Source: Fidelibacterota bacterium
Lineage (GTDB): Bacteria; Fidelibacterota; Marinisomatia; Marinisomatales; SCKK01
Assembly (NCBI GenBank): GCA_004124475.1
Contig: SCKK01000009.1
Location: forward strand, 1-64,000
Direction of reading: 5' to 3'
DNA length: 64,000 nt
A program made the translations under genes and the position numbers. The notes beneath the pieces were generated by a model, which saw nothing but the letters and a program-made list of their open reading frames with translations, did no database searches and had not been told where the DNA came from. Positions 22,455 to 60,604 of the stretch are shown here, one piece after another (the first letter of the stretch is position 1; the number at the start of each line of letters is the position of its first letter).

Positions 22455-23529
22455 CTGGATTCAAGTAGTAAGTGCAACAGTTAATTCTTCTTCAAAAAAT
22501 ACTTGGTTAAGTGTTTTGAATCCAAGTCTTTTTATAGGTCGGTTGTTAAGTCGTTTCATAGTACGGATTAATTCTTCAACGGATACTGTTCTAAAGTCTC
22601 TGCTTTTTGGAAAGTATTGGCGGATTAGGCCATTGGTATTTTCATTGGTTCTTCTTTCCCAAGCGGAATACGCGTGAGCAAAATAAAAGACACAATCCAA
22701 TGCTTTTGAGATTGGCTCGTTATTTGCAAATTCTTTTCCATTATCAGACGTAATTGTATGTACTTTATCTTTGATGAGATACAGCAACTTTCGAATTGCC
22801 TTTTCTGTCTCATCTTTAGTTTTCCGCTCCAATTTAAAAAGAAGTGCAAATCCGGATTTTCTCTCTGTAAGAGACACAATAACCTGTTTATGCCATTTAC
22901 CAATAATGGTATCCGCTTCCCGGTCTCCAATTCTACTTCGCGTTTCTACTATGGAAGGACGTTCATCAATACTGACCCTATTCTTGATCTGTCCCCATCG
23001 GTCATTCGATCCATTCCGTTTCTTACGGTTCCGTTTATAGCGTAAAGGAGTATAAAGGTCTCCACCTGTGTGTTTATCCTGAAGGATATAGTGGTAAATC
23101 CATTCATGGTTCACAGAAACACCCAGGTTCTCTTTCATCCAACCATGTATCTGTTCGGGAGACCAGTCGTTCCAGATCGACGTCTCAATAAAAGCCCAGG
23201 TACTTCCATCTATAGGTGGTTTGATTTTGCCTTTTCTTCTATCCAAGGCTAATACATGTGCTTGCTTATATCGATAGCCACGTTTTCCATGGTTCCACCT
23301 CAATTCCCGGCCTATCGTCGATTTATGAACCCCAATCGTTAAAGCAATTTCTGATTGATCATGACCGGTTTTAAGCAATGTATTTATTCCGTACCTTTGT
23401 TCCAGCGTGAGCTGGCTGTAGTTTCTCATTTGTGCTCCTCATTTTTGTATGAAAGAGAGGAAGAGATGCTACAACTGCTCCGCTTTCTCTACAAATAGTG
23501 TTTGAGTTGCAATTAAGAGTTGAATTCAA
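22455..23529 (-). mobile_element. IS30-family insertion sequence
   Basis: The transposase gene is bracketed by imperfect inverted ends: left TGGATTCAAGTAGTAAGTGC (from 22456) and, as reverse complement of the right end, TGAATTCAACTCTTAATTGC (to 23528), matching in about 15 of 20 positions and both followed by AAC. The exact ends are uncertain by a few bases and no clean 2-3 bp target duplication could be confirmed. Confidence 0.65.
22461..23429 (-). CDS. IS30-family transposase
   Basis: 322 residues. The N-terminal helix-turn-helix (QLTLEQRYGINTLLKTGHDQSEIALTIGVHKSTIGREL) is typical of IS30. The DDE catalytic residues can be read: D173 in GDREADTIIGK, D229 in TSDNGKEF and E263 in RTNENTNGLIR. 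The length is normal for the family and the frame is intact, so the element may be active. It begins with ATG near the right end of the element. Confidence 0.9.
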   Translation of the reverse strand: MRNYSQLTLEQRYGINTLLKTGHDQSEIALTIGVHKSTIGRELRWNHGKRGYRYKQAHVLALDRRKGKIKPPIDGSTWAFIETSIWNDWSPEQIHGWMKENLGVSVNHEWIYHYILQDKHTGGDLYTPLRYKRNRKKRNGSNDRWGQIKNRVSIDERPSIVETRSRIGDREADTIIGKWHKQVIVSLTERKSGFALLFKLERKTKDETEKAIRKLLYLIKDKVHTITSDNGKEFANNEPISKALDCVFYFAHAYSAWERRTNENTNGLIRQYFPKSRDFRTVSVEELIRTMKRLNNRPIKRLGFKTLNQVFFEEELTVALTT

Positions 23530-23573
23530 GGTATTGTTATTACAGAATTTTAACATAATTAACAGGAAACTTT

Positions 23574-23702
23574 AAGGAAATACAAGACAATCTGCAACCT
23601 GAATTTGTTCCTGACTCAGACCTGAAACTCATGTATCTGGTACGTCAAGTATTAAGGTATCATCATTACTCTTATCGCACCGAACAAGCCTACTGCATTT
23701 GA
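23574..23702 (+). pseudogene. Remnant of an integron-integrase-like tyrosine recombinase (N-terminal piece)
   Basis: The plus strand reads LKLMYLVRQVLRYHHYSYRT then EQAYCI and a TGA. This matches the N-terminal SAM-like domain of tyrosine recombinases of the IntI group (compare RLRHYSxRTExAYxxWIxRFI). There is no catalytic part downstream. The piece lies just outside the right end of the IS30 copy, so the insertion may have accompanied its loss. The remaining 400 bp to the next gene (23703-24111) hold no clear gene; a frame at about 23945-24031 is too short to judge. Confidence 0.5.
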
Positions 23703-54544: not shown

Positions 54545-55402
54545 TTAACTAACGGATAGCCCAACGCTCTTTTCCTTCGCCTTCGCCTGTGCCTTAGCCT
54601 GAATAGTAGCGATTTTATTTTGATAATCCCTTGCGGCGTCTCCAATTGATTTTTCTGTCTGATCCCCTGCATAGAGGACGCTTCTCGATACATTGATGAG
54701 GGCAATGCCTCCTTCATTTCCTTCACGAACGGATGATTCCAGATCTCCTCCCTGAGCGCCTATACCCGGAATAAGTAATGGCATATCCCCAGCAGCCTGT
54801 CGGATATGAGATAGTTCAGTAGGCTGAGTCGCCCCCACGACTAATCCACAATTGTCATATTCATTCAAATCTTTCACCATTTCTACAACTTTTTGGTACA
54901 ATGGATGATCATTTACAGGTTGCAATTGTAAGTCTAATGCGCTCTTATTGGATGTCAGACAGATGACAAAAACCCCTTTTTGAGGGTTGGACAGAAATGG
55001 GAGTATGGCATCCCTTCCCATGTAGGGATTGACCGTTACCGCATCGAACCCCATCCGGTCGAAGATAGACATGGCGTAATGTTTGGCGGAATTGGAGATG
55101 TCTCCCCGCTTGGCATCTGCAATGGTAAACCGCCTTTTATCAATATATTCCACTACTTCTTCGATCCACCGAAATCCTTCCCACCCGTAATGCTCAAAAA
55201 ACGCAAAATTAAGTTTATAGGCAGCTACCGAATCCATCGTGCAATCGATCACCATTCGAGTGAAATCTTTCAGTTGTTGAAAGGTTGGTGAAGAAGCTGT
55301 GGTCATTCTTGCAGCATCAATATCCAATCCGACACAAAGGAGGGAATTAGAAGAATTCACGTGGTTTAAAAGTATTTCTTTAAAGGAATTCAAGACCCGC
55401 AA
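54545..55402 (-). CDS. pyrF: Orotidine 5'-phosphate decarboxylase (long type)
   Basis: 285 residues. CVGLDID at the start, KLNFAFFEHYG, DAKRGD (96-101) with the catalytic Lys, and PGIGAQGGD are the OMP decarboxylase signatures; the length fits the type 2 subfamily. Translation probably starts at TTG 55402, as an in-frame stop lies just upstream. The first 31 codons plus 39 bp of leader are duplicated at 57765-57897. Confidence 0.9.
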   Translation of the reverse strand: MRVLNSFKEILLNHVNSSNSLLCVGLDIDAARMTTASSPTFQQLKDFTRMVIDCTMDSVAAYKLNFAFFEHYGWEGFRWIEEVVEYIDKRRFTIADAKRGDISNSAKHYAMSIFDRMGFDAVTVNPYMGRDAILPFLSNPQKGVFVICLTSNKSALDLQLQPVNDHPLYQKVVEMVKDLNEYDNCGLVVGATQPTELSHIRQAAGDMPLLIPGIGAQGGDLESSVREGNEGGIALINVSRSVLYAGDQTEKSIGDAARDYQNKIATIQAKAQAKAKEKSVGLSVS

Positions 55403-55441
55403 AGTTACAGTGACTCATATGGAGAAACAACCAGAGAACCC
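55309..55441. repeat. 133-bp direct repeat, copy A (5' end of pyrF)
   Basis: Identical to 57765-57897 except for six single-base changes. Covers the first 31 codons of pyrF and 39 bp before it. Confidence 0.85.
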
Positions 55442-55593: not shown

Positions 55594-57744
55594 TTGAATA
55601 AGTCTGGTTTTATACTGTTAACCACGGTAAGCTTCACTTTTTCAGCAGGAGCCCAGACTCAGTGGACCTTTATGGATGGACCCTATTTCGGGCGTGTTCG
55701 CGCGTTAACTATTGACTCTCAACATCCCGATACACTCTATGTAGGATTAGTAGATATGGGAGATGGTGGTCTGTTTAAAACGAATAACGGGGGTGAACAG
55801 TGGAACTATTTACCACCTTTTCAGAGTACCTATGCTATTGTAATCGATCCCCAGAACTCAGATAGAGTTTATGCAGGAATGTGGAGAAGTACAGACAGTG
55901 GCGTTAGTTGGGTAAATATGGAAGGTATAGGATCTGGAATAGGAATTAGATCATTTGCCGTTGATCCGATCAATACTAATTTTATCTACGCAGGTGGATC
56001 GGCTCAGGGAATCTGGAAGAGTATTGATTATGGTGAAAATTGGGAAGCAATCAATAATGGTATCCCCATTGAATCGATTCACGGTACAATCACATCGATT
56101 GCAATTAATCCTCTCAATTCCTCTACATTAATTATCGGCACCTATCGTGATGGTATGTATAAAAGTTACAATGGGGGTGAGAATTGGGACTATATTGGGT
56201 TTACCCGTGTCAAGGATGTTGTGTTTGACGGGAACGATACTACAATTGTTTATGCCGTAGAAGGAAGTTCGGGATCGATTTTAAAATCCATAGATAGTGG
56301 TGATAATTGGTTTTCTACAGGATTAAGTGGTATGGAAAAAATAAAAATTGATCCATCGAATTCCCAAATCCTTTATGCCGCAGGTTATGGTATTTACAAA
56401 AGCTCTAATGGTGGATCAAGTTGGTCAGATGTAGGAAATGGATTTTTCGGGTGGTCAAAATATATTTGGGCAATTGAAATAAATCCCAAAAATCCCAATG
56501 AGGTTTATATTGGCACAGAAGTAGGTGTTTATAAAAGTGAAGATGAAGCTAATCAATGGATACAAAGATTTAAAGGTTTGGGTAAAACCCTTAATTTTGA
56601 TTTTAGCATATCCGGAGGAGAATTTTACACTGCAGCAGGTTTTGGCGTGTTTCAATATACCAATGAAGAATGGATACATCGGGGTCTTTATTACCCAATT
56701 GAAGTTGAATATTCAAATGGATCATCCAACGTTTTATTTGCTACAACAGACACACAAATAATGCAAATTTTTTTTTATCGTAGTTTTAATAATGGATTAA
56801 CGTGGGAAAACACAGGATTATTTGGTATTGGTAGTTTACCTATTACAGTTTCTCCAAGTGATCCTAACACTGTGTATGTTGCCGGCTGGAGAAGTACGAA
56901 TCAGGGAGATACTTGGGAACAAATGTCTACCCAATTAGATTACGGTCCTATTGCAGTGCACCCGGAACAAAGTGAAACTTTATATATGGGAAGTTATAAC
57001 GGAGTGTACAAAAGTACTGATAGTGGAACTACCTGGGACACGTTAGCTTTCCTGAATAGTTCCAATCATAAAACAGTGACTGTGGATCCCTTAAATGGAG
57101 AGGTAGTCTATGTTGGCATTTATGATGAAGGAATATTCAAAAGCATAAATGGTGGCGTAGAATGGACACCTATTAATGCAGGCTTAACAAACTTCGAAAT
57201 TACAGCTTTAGGTATTCATCCTGTAAATGCTCAACATCTTTACGCAGGCACTTATGGAGGAGGTATTTTCCAAAGTAAAAACGGAGGGTTAGAATGGGCA
57301 GCGATTAATGAAGGACTTCCAAGCCTTCAGGTTACTGCATTAGCCGTAGACACGCATAAAGTTTACGTTGGCTTCAGTGAATGGGAAGGTATTTATCAGA
57401 GAGATTTTGTAATTTCTGTTCAATACCATCAAGAAAACGATCAACCTAACGCATTCGTTCTATTCCCTAATTATCCAAATCCATTTAATGCTCAAACGAC
57501 CCTTCAATTTCAAATCTCAAACCCAGGCCATATCACATTGAAAATCTATAACGTTTTAGGAGAAGAAATTATTACGATTGTGGATAAATATCTGAACGCC
57601 GGTTACTATACTGTCAATTGGGATGGGAAAGATAATAATTACAGTGTTGCTTCATCAGGAATGTACATATATAGTTTTACAGTAATTTCTATGGAAAATG
57701 ATATGAAGTTTCAGCAAACCAGGAAGATGGTATTTCTTCGCTAA
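55594..57744 (+). CDS. Secreted BNR/sortilin-like beta-propeller protein with type-IX-like sorting tail
   Basis: 716 residues from a TTG. Signal peptide about 1-20. Ten or more units of the type IWKSIDYGENWEAINNG / YKSTDSGTTWDTL are BNR/Asp-box repeats, as in sialidases and VPS10 propellers. The last 85 residues contain LFPNYPNPFNAQTTLQF and VLGEEI...GYYTVNWDGKDN...SSGMYIYSF, the T9SS type A sorting domain. It is likely exported and attached to the surface. It is the only plus-strand gene in this part, and lies between the two pyrF-derived repeats, so it looks like an inserted module. Confidence 0.8.
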   Translation: MNKSGFILLTTVSFTFSAGAQTQWTFMDGPYFGRVRALTIDSQHPDTLYVGLVDMGDGGLFKTNNGGEQWNYLPPFQSTYAIVIDPQNSDRVYAGMWRSTDSGVSWVNMEGIGSGIGIRSFAVDPINTNFIYAGGSAQGIWKSIDYGENWEAINNGIPIESIHGTITSIAINPLNSSTLIIGTYRDGMYKSYNGGENWDYIGFTRVKDVVFDGNDTTIVYAVEGSSGSILKSIDSGDNWFSTGLSGMEKIKIDPSNSQILYAAGYGIYKSSNGGSSWSDVGNGFFGWSKYIWAIEINPKNPNEVYIGTEVGVYKSEDEANQWIQRFKGLGKTLNFDFSISGGEFYTAAGFGVFQYTNEEWIHRGLYYPIEVEYSNGSSNVLFATTDTQIMQIFFYRSFNNGLTWENTGLFGIGSLPITVSPSDPNTVYVAGWRSTNQGDTWEQMSTQLDYGPIAVHPEQSETLYMGSYNGVYKSTDSGTTWDTLAFLNSSNHKTVTVDPLNGEVVYVGIYDEGIFKSINGGVEWTPINAGLTNFEITALGIHPVNAQHLYAGTYGGGIFQSKNGGLEWAAINEGLPSLQVTALAVDTHKVYVGFSEWEGIYQRDFVISVQYHQENDQPNAFVLFPNYPNPFNAQTTLQFQISNPGHITLKIYNVLGEEIITIVDKYLNAGYYTVNWDGKDNNYSVASSGMYIYSFTVISMENDMKFQQTRKMVFLR

Positions 57745-57764: not shown

Positions 57765-57897
57765 TTGCAGCATCAATATCCAATCCGACGCAAAGGAGGG
57801 AATTAGATGAATTCACGTGGTTTAATAGTATTTCTTTAAAAGAATTCAAGACCCGCAAAGTTACAGTGACTCTTATGGAGAAACAACCGGAGAACCC
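57765..57897. repeat. 133-bp direct repeat, copy B (truncated pyrF 5' end)
   Basis: A second copy of the pyrF beginning, in the same orientation, stopping after codon 31. Any translation would read into unrelated sequence. The junction with the GIY-YIG gene is 15 bp away. Confidence 0.85.
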
Positions 57898-57911
57898 CAC
57901 TAAGGACGGTA

Positions 57912-58244
57912 TTATCCATACCAAACTGTATACCCTTTTTTTCTCAACTCTTTTGCCAACCATGCCTCAATTTCTTCAGCATCTTTGCGAGTTGGAATGG
58001 GATTATACTTATCATATAGTTCAGGCTTTAGTGCAATTCCATATTCCTTGGCATACTTGTTACTTCTATACCCCTCCTTATGCTGCTCAAATCTAATCTC
58101 TGGTGGATAATAGCTTTGCCCAATATATACACATGGTTTATTGGACAGTCTTTGTGGATTAGCCTGACGAATCTTTCTAAACGATTTGACTTTTTTATCT
58201 AATTCAATTGCGTATACATAGTATTTCTTCTTCGCTCTGGCCAT
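57912..58244 (-). CDS. GIY-YIG nuclease domain protein
   Basis: 110 residues. YYVYAIELD and CVYIGQSYYPPEIRFEQHKEG fit the GIY-YIG fold (the paired Tyr strands, then the helix with Arg and the HKxG), and a C-terminal Glu in AEEIEAWLAKEL. Such single-domain nucleases cut DNA in repair or mobile elements. It is downstream of an attC-like site and so is probably the third cassette of an integron array. Its own attC seems lost at the junction with repeat B. Confidence 0.65.
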   Translation of the reverse strand: MARAKKKYYVYAIELDKKVKSFRKIRQANPQRLSNKPCVYIGQSYYPPEIRFEQHKEGYRSNKYAKEYGIALKPELYDKYNPIPTRKDAEEIEAWLAKELRKKGYTVWYG

Positions 58245-58302
58245 TTGCTTCTATATAATGACTTTCCCCAAAAATCACCCAAATATCAAATCAGGGTCCG
58301 CA

Positions 58303-58499
58303 ACCTAACCCACTGCCAGTGTTTGTGTTATATGCTCAAGATTTGTTATAAAGAATATAAATCCACTATGTCAATATCTTTGTCGGGACATTACTTGTTC
58401 TTTTGCTTCACCCACCACCAATAGACTCCTTTTAAAAACCCGGAAGATTGGTTTATTTACGCTGCTAGCGTTTGGCGTCCATAGCAGCGAGTGTTAGGT
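58303..58499 (-). other. Candidate integron attC site 1
   Basis: On the minus strand it starts ACCTAACACTCGCTGC and ends GCAGTGGGTTAGGT: the outer R boxes ACCTAAC/GTTAGGT pair fully and CTGC/GCAG pair after a mismatched spacer. Within the left arm is a second hairpin (CGCTGC..GCAGCG). It begins 7 bp after the stop codon of the cassette gene. The length (197 bp) is longer than usual attC, so confidence is moderate. Confidence 0.45.
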
Positions 58500-58505
58500 A
58501 GATCA

Positions 58506-59483
58506 TTATTCAACCATGTAGTGCTTATCATAGAGTTGTGTTATTTCTTCTTTGCTTATATCCCGAATATCTGATTTCTTCACTTCAATGTTCATGGTAA
58601 ATCCAAGTGTCCCTGTGGTATTTCGTAAATCAAATTCAAAATCCTCAAGATTTTCAGGCCATGCATATTGTGCTGTTTCGGGATCTTGATTATGATATAG
58701 CTTCAAGAAGGAAATTATGTTTGATAAACTTAAGCGTATTAAACCAATTTGATACCAAATATTCTTTGGAAGCCAATTAATAGTTTTTTCGTGAAGCCTA
58801 ATATTATGATTACTGTTTGTAGGAAACTCTTCAAAGAAATAAGTAGCTCCATATTCACTGCCGCCTAGTGATTTCATATCATTGGGTGTAGCTGGCTTTC
58901 CATGTGTCTTTTCAAGTCCAAATGATATAAAAACACCACCAGGTCTGGCTCGGTAACCATGCTTTATACTATTATAAATGTTTTCAAAATCCTTACTGCG
59001 ATACTCACTAGATAATCGTTGCCAAAAATCTGCGAAATGCCGTTTGATTTTATTGTTTTTTTCTTGATCCTCAAGCTCAAATTGGTGAATAGTGTTCGAT
59101 AATGATTCCCAATCGACATAAGACAACCTGAGTTTATTCCGGATTCTAGCACCTTTTGAGATATTGTCAATCAGAGAGTTAAGATCACTATTTCGATACT
59201 TAAATAACCACCCATAAATGCAATCTGGAGCTTGTAGGGTAGCTCCTAAAAGTGCAAAAAGACTCTCAGCAGCATGTGACAGGTATGAGCGCAATGCAAA
59301 GGAGATATATTGCTTTTGTTTCTTTGTTGTTTTTTCATCTTCTAAGTGATGATGCAACATGCTTGCTATAGTGTCGAAGTATAATGGGTCATATTCTGAA
59401 ATAAATTCTTCGTTCTTCTTCTTAATATTCCAATCCCAGAAGCAAAACGGTTTATTGTTGATCATAATAATAACGAATTGCAT
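58506..59483 (-). CDS. Cassette gene of unknown function
   Basis: 325 residues (possibly from the Met at position 7). Mostly helical; FALRSYLSHAAESLFALLGATLQAP and FENIYNSIKHGYRARPGG recall HEPN-like or abortive-infection proteins (the conserved helical K/N-x-x-K-H-G) but no HEPN RxxxxH motif was found. It has no signal peptide. It sits between two attC-like sites and starts 25 bp after the upstream one, as integron cassettes do. No function is claimed. Confidence 0.6.
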   Translation of the reverse strand: MQFVIIMINNKPFCFWDWNIKKKNEEFISEYDPLYFDTIASMLHHHLEDEKTTKKQKQYISFALRSYLSHAAESLFALLGATLQAPDCIYGWLFKYRNSDLNSLIDNISKGARIRNKLRLSYVDWESLSNTIHQFELEDQEKNNKIKRHFADFWQRLSSEYRSKDFENIYNSIKHGYRARPGGVFISFGLEKTHGKPATPNDMKSLGGSEYGATYFFEEFPTNSNHNIRLHEKTINWLPKNIWYQIGLIRLSLSNIISFLKLYHNQDPETAQYAWPENLEDFEFDLRNTTGTLGFTMNIEVKKSDIRDISKEEITQLYDKHYMVE

Positions 59484-59508
59484 TTTTTACTTATTTATTT
59501 TTAGGTCA

Positions 59509-59637
59509 ATCTAACGAAAATAACCTGCGTGAAACTTTCTACCACAGGACTTTCCCGATACAAATTTACGTTTGTTAAACCACAAAACCTGAAATTCACC
59601 GCAAAGCTTTTCACTTCAGGTTGATTTGGAGTTAGAT
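59509..59637 (-). other. Integron attC site 2 (129 bp)
   Basis: Read from the minus strand: ATCTAAC (R'') ... GTTAGAT (R'), exactly complementary. Next to the R boxes is a mismatched spacer, then AACCTG, GTGAAA and CTTT blocks that pair with only single unpaired bases between (left arm AACCTG-AA-GTGAAA-AG-CTTT; right arm AACCTG-C-GTGAAA-CTTT). Unpaired spacer plus extra bases is the hallmark of attC. It overlaps the last codons of the serine-protease cassette, and the next gene starts 25 bp further on. Confidence 0.75.
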
Positions 59638-60389
59638 ATAGTTTGATTATCAAATAGATTATAGTTCTTCTCAAACTCGTTAATCAAAAAACGAATATTT
59701 GTGCACTTTAGATAATTTGCATTATCCGATGCAGTTAGTATTGCAATTACCTTTGCATTTCCAGTATGCCATAATTTTTCTAATTCAAATCCGTGAACTT
59801 TAAAAATAAATGAGCCGCTTAGACCCCCAGATTCAGGAAGTTGACCAGAAGGATGAGTGGTTATTATTTCATTGATTTTTTTTGGATATGAGCAATAGAG
59901 GTATTTATCGTTACTTATTTTATCTTGATATAAAGTTGTTAGAATACTCAAAGGTTGTATTGTTCTTTTTTTAGGTTTTACTTCAACATACTCAGCTACT
60001 ACACCGCATAAATAAAAATCTTCCTTTTCAAATGGATAAATAGAAAAATCATTTATTACTTCAAAATCTTCGATAAGAAATGTGCTTTCACTGCAATATT
60101 GTGTTATTTCAATCAAAGCTAAATCAATTGCATTATTGGAATTCCATACATATTTCAAATCATTCTTAAATAATTTTTCTTTATTTACTGTCACTAATAC
60201 TGCCTCTTTTGAATCAAAGAATTTTTCGGCTACGTGTTTACAGGTAACTACATAGGACTTTCCATTTACATTAAGAAAGTTTCCCGTAGCCACAATTTCA
60301 TTTCTCAAGGATTTATAAAAAAACGCACAAATATTTTTACTATATCTTTCTTTAAGAATATTCTGAACTATAGCTGATAATTCATTCAC
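59616..60389 (-). CDS. Trypsin-like serine protease (cassette gene)
   Basis: 257 residues, GTG start, no signal peptide. The chymotrypsin-fold triad can be placed: H52 in VVTCKHVAE, D89 in NAIDLALIEI, S191 in SGGLSGSF. Cytoplasmic proteases of this kind occur in antiphage systems and other signalling modules, but a link here is not established. It lies between an attC R'-like box (60400-60406, 11 bp upstream) and attC 2, so it looks like the first visible cassette. Confidence 0.72.
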   Translation of the reverse strand: MNELSAIVQNILKERYSKNICAFFYKSLRNEIVATGNFLNVNGKSYVVTCKHVAEKFFDSKEAVLVTVNKEKLFKNDLKYVWNSNNAIDLALIEITQYCSESTFLIEDFEVINDFSIYPFEKEDFYLCGVVAEYVEVKPKKRTIQPLSILTTLYQDKISNDKYLYCSYPKKINEIITTHPSGQLPESGGLSGSFIFKVHGFELEKLWHTGNAKVIAILTASDNANYLKCTNIRFLINEFEKNYNLFDNQTISNSKST

Positions 60390-60399
60390 TTTTAACTAC

Positions 60400-60406
60400 A
60401 CCTAAC
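60400..60406 (-). other. attC R'-box (GTTAGGT), partner missing
   Basis: The minus strand reads CGTTAGGTGTAG just before the protease gene. A matching RYYYAAC box is not seen within 140 bp to the right, where an IS110 remnant lies instead. The attC may have been broken by that insertion. Confidence 0.4.
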
Positions 60407-60450
60407 GATATCTATGTTCCCCTTTGCTAGGAAGAGTAATTTATGATGAA

Positions 60451-60473
60451 AAACCTGATGGGGTATCAGGTTT
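60451..60473. terminator. Hairpin AAACCTGAT-N5-ATCAGGTTT
   Basis: A perfect nine-base stem followed by AATCCTTTT. It may be a terminator or a sub-terminal repeat of the IS110-family remnant just after it. Confidence 0.45.
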
Positions 60474-60499
60474 AATCCTTTTACCAACAAAGAGTAACT

Positions 60500-60604
60500 A
60501 TGATGAATAAACATATACAATCATTAATTGAAAAGCGTCAATTTATACAGGGGAAAATAATCATAGGGATCGATCCTGCCAAGGATAAACACCAGGCAAG
60601 GTAA
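60500..60604 (+). pseudogene. IS110/IS1111-family transposase remnant (N-terminus)
   Basis: ATG at 60500 or 60503, then KGKIIIGIDPAKDKHQAR and a stop. GIDPAKxKH is the N-terminal DEDD motif of IS110 transposases. Only 34 residues remain of about 320-400. IS1111-type members are known to insert in attC sites, which would explain the broken site nearby. Confidence 0.55.

Follow-up and report, generated by a model that had tools for sequence, protein, structure and literature searches.

Two Probable Integron Gene Cassettes Stranded beside a GIY-YIG Gene and pyrF in a Neomarinimicrobiota Genome with Numerous Dispersed attC Sites

We analyzed a 64-kb stretch (the window) of contig C1 (81.8 kb), which belongs to a draft genome assembly of a marine bacterium (Candidatus Neomarinimicrobiota), 3.15 Mb in 77 contigs with an estimated contamination of 0.03% (G000). 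A sister species (G001) was used for comparison, the phylum survey covered 245 genomes, and 61 relatives were surveyed for attC sites and intI; contigs and loci are designated by C and L numbers, respectively. Three same-strand open reading frames were located exactly where a previous sequence-only reading had placed them, and they encode a GIY-YIG nuclease-domain protein, a 325-amino-acid (aa) protein, and a 257-aa candidate serine protease (Table 1). That reading had regarded all three as members of an integrase-less array of integron cassettes (CALIN-like), spaced by attC-like sites and defence-like in content.

Table 1. Features at the cassette locus (positions in the window)
Feature	Coordinates	Strand	Basis
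GIY-YIG nuclease-domain gene, resident	57912..58244	-	weak Pfam PF01541 match
Lipoprotein gene 3' tail and intergenic DNA, host, fused to broken attC	58303..58380	-	alignment to G001:C151 (L073:1321-1438)
Cassette 2 attC, 5' half (R''-L'' side)	58421..58499	-	homology to type-2 attC sites
Cassette gene 2, 325-aa protein	58506..59483	-	ORF
Cassette 1 attC	59509..59637	-	structural scan, fold, covariation, covariance model
Cassette gene 1, 257-aa trypsin-like serine protease candidate	59616..60389	-	sequence motifs
GTTAGGT, R' half-site of lost preceding attC (or attI), protease cassette 5' boundary	60400..60406	-	sequence; same junction at other IS copies
IS110-family element, truncated 5' end, abuts R' box	60407..60596	+	92-94% identity to copies in G000 and G001

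A structural scan of the whole 64 kb for attC features gave a sole match above threshold, the site at 59509-59637 on the minus strand, and no match in three Markov controls. The R boxes of this site (R'' at 59631-59637 and R' at 59509-59515) are complementary at 7 of 7 positions (ATCTAAC/GTTAGAT) with AAC and GTT cores, the L''/L' stem (AAATcAACCTG/CAGGTTATTT) has one extrahelical base, and an unpaired spacer is present; as in an integron cassette, the site lies on the same strand as its gene. Besides, a leave-one-out covariance model, built from attC-like sites on integrase-bearing contigs with this site left out, gave it a score of 106.8 bits (E = 3.5e-19); no other place in the window was significant. 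The sites on the integrase contigs of G000 align with it end to end. Covariation was evident in that 13 of the 22 pairs were altered on both sides, a number reached by none of 500 shuffles, and a 12-sequence alignment of the R and L stems contained 33 cells altered on both sides compared to 13.0 in shuffles, with 83% of cells paired compared to at most 39% when partners were slid. The bottom strand folds as previously described, with fully paired R boxes, at a stability only moderately greater than that of shuffles (z = -1.91; top strand, z = -2.59). A search of Rfam returned no relevant match. We regard 59509-59637 as an established, genuine attC site, as the sequence-only reading had proposed, and it belongs to the same attC family as the sites beside the IntI genes of G000.

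The attC site overlaps the 3' end of the protease gene, whose stop codon (59616-59618) sits within it, and the next gene begins 25 bp further on, just as had been read. Both boundaries of this cassette, GTTAGGT upstream and GTTAGAT downstream, conform to G/TTRRRY, and the gene and its attC form a complete cassette. The 257-aa protein contains the motifs TCKHV, NAIDLALI, and GLSGS and has catalytic residues ordered H52-D89-S191 as read from its sequence. It is probably a protease of the trypsin-like kind and may have a role in defence. Its match to the LmuA (Lamassu) profile (E = 3.6e-6) was not counted as evidence of a Lamassu system, because a control protein encoded at another place in the window matches that profile better (E = 2.6e-7). 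No LmuB gene lies beside the protease gene, and the combination of an LmuA match with LmuB/LmuC neighbours that would mark a Lamassu system is not present.

The 325-aa protein had no significant match in Pfam, NCBIfam, PADLOC, or PDB and no homologue in the genome contigs searched; a plasmid of Deinococcus radiophilus encodes, in the neighbourhood of a DNA methyltransferase, a full-length homologue with 28% identity. Homologues of neither protein were found in the viral contigs searched, and AlphaFold models made without an alignment (pLDDT of about 33 for both) were unusable. Within the phylum, the protease has a match in 3 of the 245 genomes, G000 included, and the 325-aa protein occurs in G000 alone. 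Such sporadic presence is as expected for cassettes, whereas the flanking GIY-YIG gene is widespread.

A second attC-like site had been proposed at 58303-58499, and this proposal holds for one half of it. The region carries matching R boxes, the stop codon of the 325-aa gene lies 6 bp before its R'' box, and homology to the 5' half of the type-2 attC sites at L026:11421-11574, L150, and L023:17624-17784 covers positions 58421-58499. However, the site is not intact. Its other part (58303 to about 58380), ended by a GTTAGGT box at 58303-58309 on the minus strand, is host derived and aligns with the 3' end of the lipoprotein gene that precedes a GIY-YIG copy in G001 (C151). Moreover, the region folds no better than shuffles (z = -0.79) and scores about 11.6 bits unfiltered, whereas intact sites of the same subtype score 39 to 48 bits. 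The site 58303-58499 is a broken hybrid, in which half an attC is fused to host DNA and the remainder of the attC is lost; cassette 2 retains its upstream boundary, while its own R' box is uncertain. No attC follows the GIY-YIG gene. IntegronFinder 2 defines a CALIN by at least 2 attC sites (PMC9024848), and the label does not apply in this strict sense because covariance models R1 and R2 find just one intact attC in the window. Since the attC of cassette 2 is broken, the pair seems to be largely fossil, although one of the full-length IntI of G000 might even now excise the protease cassette in trans.

The GTTAGGT box reported ahead of the protease gene was indeed present. The 190 bp beyond it recur in G000 and G001 and, from the transposase start that they contain, are assigned to an element of the IS110 family; in the window copy, the transposase starts at 60500, about 30 codons remain, and the element is truncated at 60596. 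In several copies of the element, the left end abuts the GTTA of R' boxes. At L058 (2553 to about 4430) and L023 (around 17743), the element has inserted into an attC directly 5' to the GTT of the R' box, with its right end next to the attC end that precedes this box. Deletion derivatives of the element were observed at L059. Because GTTAGGT adjoins an IS that inserts at R' boxes, another attC or attI must at one time have been present upstream of the protease cassette. An IS1111-attC group within the IS110/IS1111 family was reportedly described by Tetu and Holmes in 2008 and by Post and Hall in 2009. Elements of this group are known to insert just before the attC R' box (PMC11187229), and the insertion point, at one attC end 5' of the R' GTT, fits at several copies of the element, as does the IS110-family transposase start. 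The window copy is a fragment, and its membership, suggested by insertion point and protein start, is putative.

The GIY-YIG gene, which the sequence-only reading had counted among the cassettes, was ruled out as one. Relatives of this gene occur in 64 of the 245 phylum genomes, nearly always as a single copy, and in G001 the gene (97.4% identical) is contiguous with pyrF and lacks an attC. Because it is widespread and adjoins pyrF in the sister species, we consider it a resident, vertically inherited neighbour, and the interpretation as integrase-less integron cassettes stands for the protease and 325-aa genes but not for the nuclease gene. A truncated second GIY-YIG copy is present in G001 at L073 (C151, positions 4-1675), where an intI C-terminal fragment, the lipoprotein gene, and this copy follow in a row. 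As a separate observation on the pyrF region, window positions 55309-55441 and 57765-57897 form a 133-bp direct repeat (95.5%) of the pyrF 5' end, flanking a 2.3-kb insert; at 55594-57744 this insert encodes a sortilin/BNR protein whose C-terminal tail is type IX-like. G001 has a single copy of the repeat and no such insert.

In agreement with the integrase-less reading, no TIGR02249 match was found on contig C1, but the genome as a whole carries 4 full-length IntI above the TIGR02249 cut-off, 2 frameshifted ones, and many fragments. Contig C1 does contain a decayed intI stub (23533-23697, plus strand), comprising an upstream region and about 25 codons with 81% identity to the C13 intI region; an IS30-type transposase (22461-23429) adjoins it. 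Other intI N-terminal/attI stubs were noted at L030 (2804-3003, 7226-7422, and 9228-9667), L034 (6803-7375), and L038 (4937-5020 and 6213-6297), and across the genome N-terminal stubs are seemingly commoner than C-terminal ones. A strict-consensus scan of the intI contigs gave almost no further sites because the R boxes there deviate, and homology and a covariance model were then used. In G000, the attC model detected 50 sites with E ≤ 0.1. They are spread over 27 contigs and form 32 clusters, the majority of which consist of one site and lie far away from intI. At 36 of the 48 sites checked, an ORF (at least 60 aa) on the same strand has its end in the interval from -40 to +60 bp around R'', compared with 11.5% of random points (binomial p = 2.6e-24). 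Among the 61 relatives, the presence of attC tracks that of intI (9/12 with intI versus 13/49 without; p = 0.005), and none equals G000 in attC count.

Besides, one and the same cassette was found at different loci, on C63 of G000 and C180 of G001, with 99.3% identity and different flanks. The identity begins and stops at R' boxes within different attC surroundings, and this comparison is strong evidence that cassettes have moved site specifically within the genus. On C29, C27, C16, and C32, the first cassette is preceded by decayed attI/intI pieces whose divergent orientation is that of a functional integron, so a number at least of the integrase-less loci are decayed integrons. The window locus lacks the adjoining intI and attI of a complete integron, and no decayed remnant of either was found directly beside the protease/325-aa pair. 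The IntI encoded on C57 is 86% identical to one on a 7,153-bp contig (JADFPG010000145.1) of the Candidatus Neomarinimicrobiota MAG B71T3L11. The next-closest IntI relatives come from Scalindua, Syntrophobacterales, Auribacterota, and KSB1, a distribution suggestive of horizontal transfer.

With respect to defence-like content, the cassette genes elsewhere in G000 include TIR, Trypsin_2, SLFN/AlbA, GmrSD, SIR2, BrnT, and HicB genes, as well as genes for a MjaI-type restriction enzyme and a pPIWI-associated nuclease. At L027 (2388-6050, minus strand), a cassette right beside a frameshifted intI holds a full ABC-3C/Lamassu-like trio of Cap4-CTD7, MC3, and DUF3732 (LmuB, E = 1.1e-131). We grade the enrichment of defence genes among the cassettes as a tendency because 40 control proteins of the window also drew PADLOC matches, chiefly to generic domains. 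The defence-like content that had been suggested is supported, and plausible, as this genome-wide tendency; for the two window genes it is not supported and stays unproven. Integron cassettes have already been reported as reservoirs of defence genes (Kieffer 2025 and others, as far as they are cited in PMC12444791).

We consider it highly probable (a probability of about 0.88) that 58421-60406 comprises two integron gene cassettes, the protease gene with its attC and the 325-aa gene with half an attC, stranded on the chromosome beside the GIY-YIG gene and pyrF. The cassettes would have been recombined in by IntI through the folded bottom strand of attC. They may have entered an integron that afterwards lost its integrase and attI to decay, as is visible at four other loci, or an attC-like or non-classical genomic site (attG) may have received them in trans. 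The IS110-family element, which inserts at R' boxes, interrupted the attC or attI on the upstream side and was itself truncated afterwards, and the downstream attC of cassette 2 is fused to the lipoprotein gene tail. An empty-site allele spanning both ends of the pair was not found, since the sister contigs break there; the same applies to C63 and C6.

A narrower version of this history, in which an IntI encoded elsewhere inserted the cassettes directly at a non-classical attG and no integron platform was ever present, strikes us as possible but rather unlikely. Cassettes are known to insert at attG (Loot 2024, described in PMC12901181), and the mostly single attC clusters far from intI, the lack of an attI or intI remnant next to the pair, and the resident nature of the flanking chromosome all accord with it. 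On the other hand, the upstream GTTAGGT was the R' half of something that an attC-targeting IS entered, implying an earlier cassette or attI, four sibling loci keep decayed platforms, and in G001 an intI fragment is separated by 1.2 kb from a GIY-YIG copy that likewise has the lipoprotein gene beside it.

A further possibility is an error of assembly or binning that attached cassettes to this contig, whether they came from elsewhere in the genome or from a contaminant. A 77-contig draft with repeated attC sites and IS copies invites this suspicion, as such repeats mislead integron assembly (PMC9024848), but the lipoprotein-tail/GIY-YIG junction has a parallel in the sister species, the segment is internal to its contig, the attC family is G000's own, and the estimated contamination is 0.03%; an artefact is very improbable. 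We give still less credence to a two-gene defence operon with a palindrome that is merely a terminator or regulatory hairpin. The genes do lie on the same strand, 132 bp apart, the protease has its weak LmuA match, and the 325-aa homologue on the Deinococcus plasmid neighbours a methyltransferase. Nevertheless, dozens of sites that follow other genes show homology to the entire palindrome, the two genes co-occur in no other genome searched, and the LmuA profile is reached by the control protein as well. Most likely, then, the window array is a remnant integron or a set of trans-inserted cassettes, trimmed by an attC-targeting IS110-family element.

The usual description of an integron is that of a single array next to a single integrase. 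G000, with its 4 full-length and further decayed integrases and about 50 attC sites at 32 loci, displays array fragmentation, persistence of orphan cassettes, and movement between loci. We tentatively entertain the idea, which we rate as rather doubtful at present, of a dispersed integron in this genus, where several IntI platforms would form and later decay, attC cassettes would stay behind at more than 30 loci, and the remaining full-length IntI would act on these scattered sites in trans. If so, the whole chromosome instead of one array would serve as a cassette reservoir, enriched in defence genes. The genome also widens the range of hosts whose cassettes carry such genes (TIR, SIR2, GmrSD, a restriction enzyme, and a complete ABC-3C/Lamassu-like set). 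Among the papers covered by a literature text search, none had both "integron integrase" and "Marinimicrobia," which is weak evidence of little prior description.

Compared with known systems, the window pair shares with integron cassettes a gene with a 3' attC, R''/R' and L''/L' stems, an extrahelical base, G/TTRRRY boundaries, and related attC sites beside IntI genes in the same genome, but it is chromosomal, away from attI and intI, and its second attC is broken. Insertion at attG (Loot et al. 2024, in the account cited above) would explain single cassettes dispersed over a chromosome, whereas at the window locus no attG target was identified and sibling loci show decayed platforms. With CALINs, the locus has in common attC cassettes without a nearby intI in a genome with IntI elsewhere; it differs in having one intact attC, under the default of two, and about 20 further loci of this kind occur in G000, many of them having just one attC. 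A stranded cassette pair is a known kind of object, and what is unusual is how many such loci a single Neomarinimicrobiota genome has and how widely they are dispersed.
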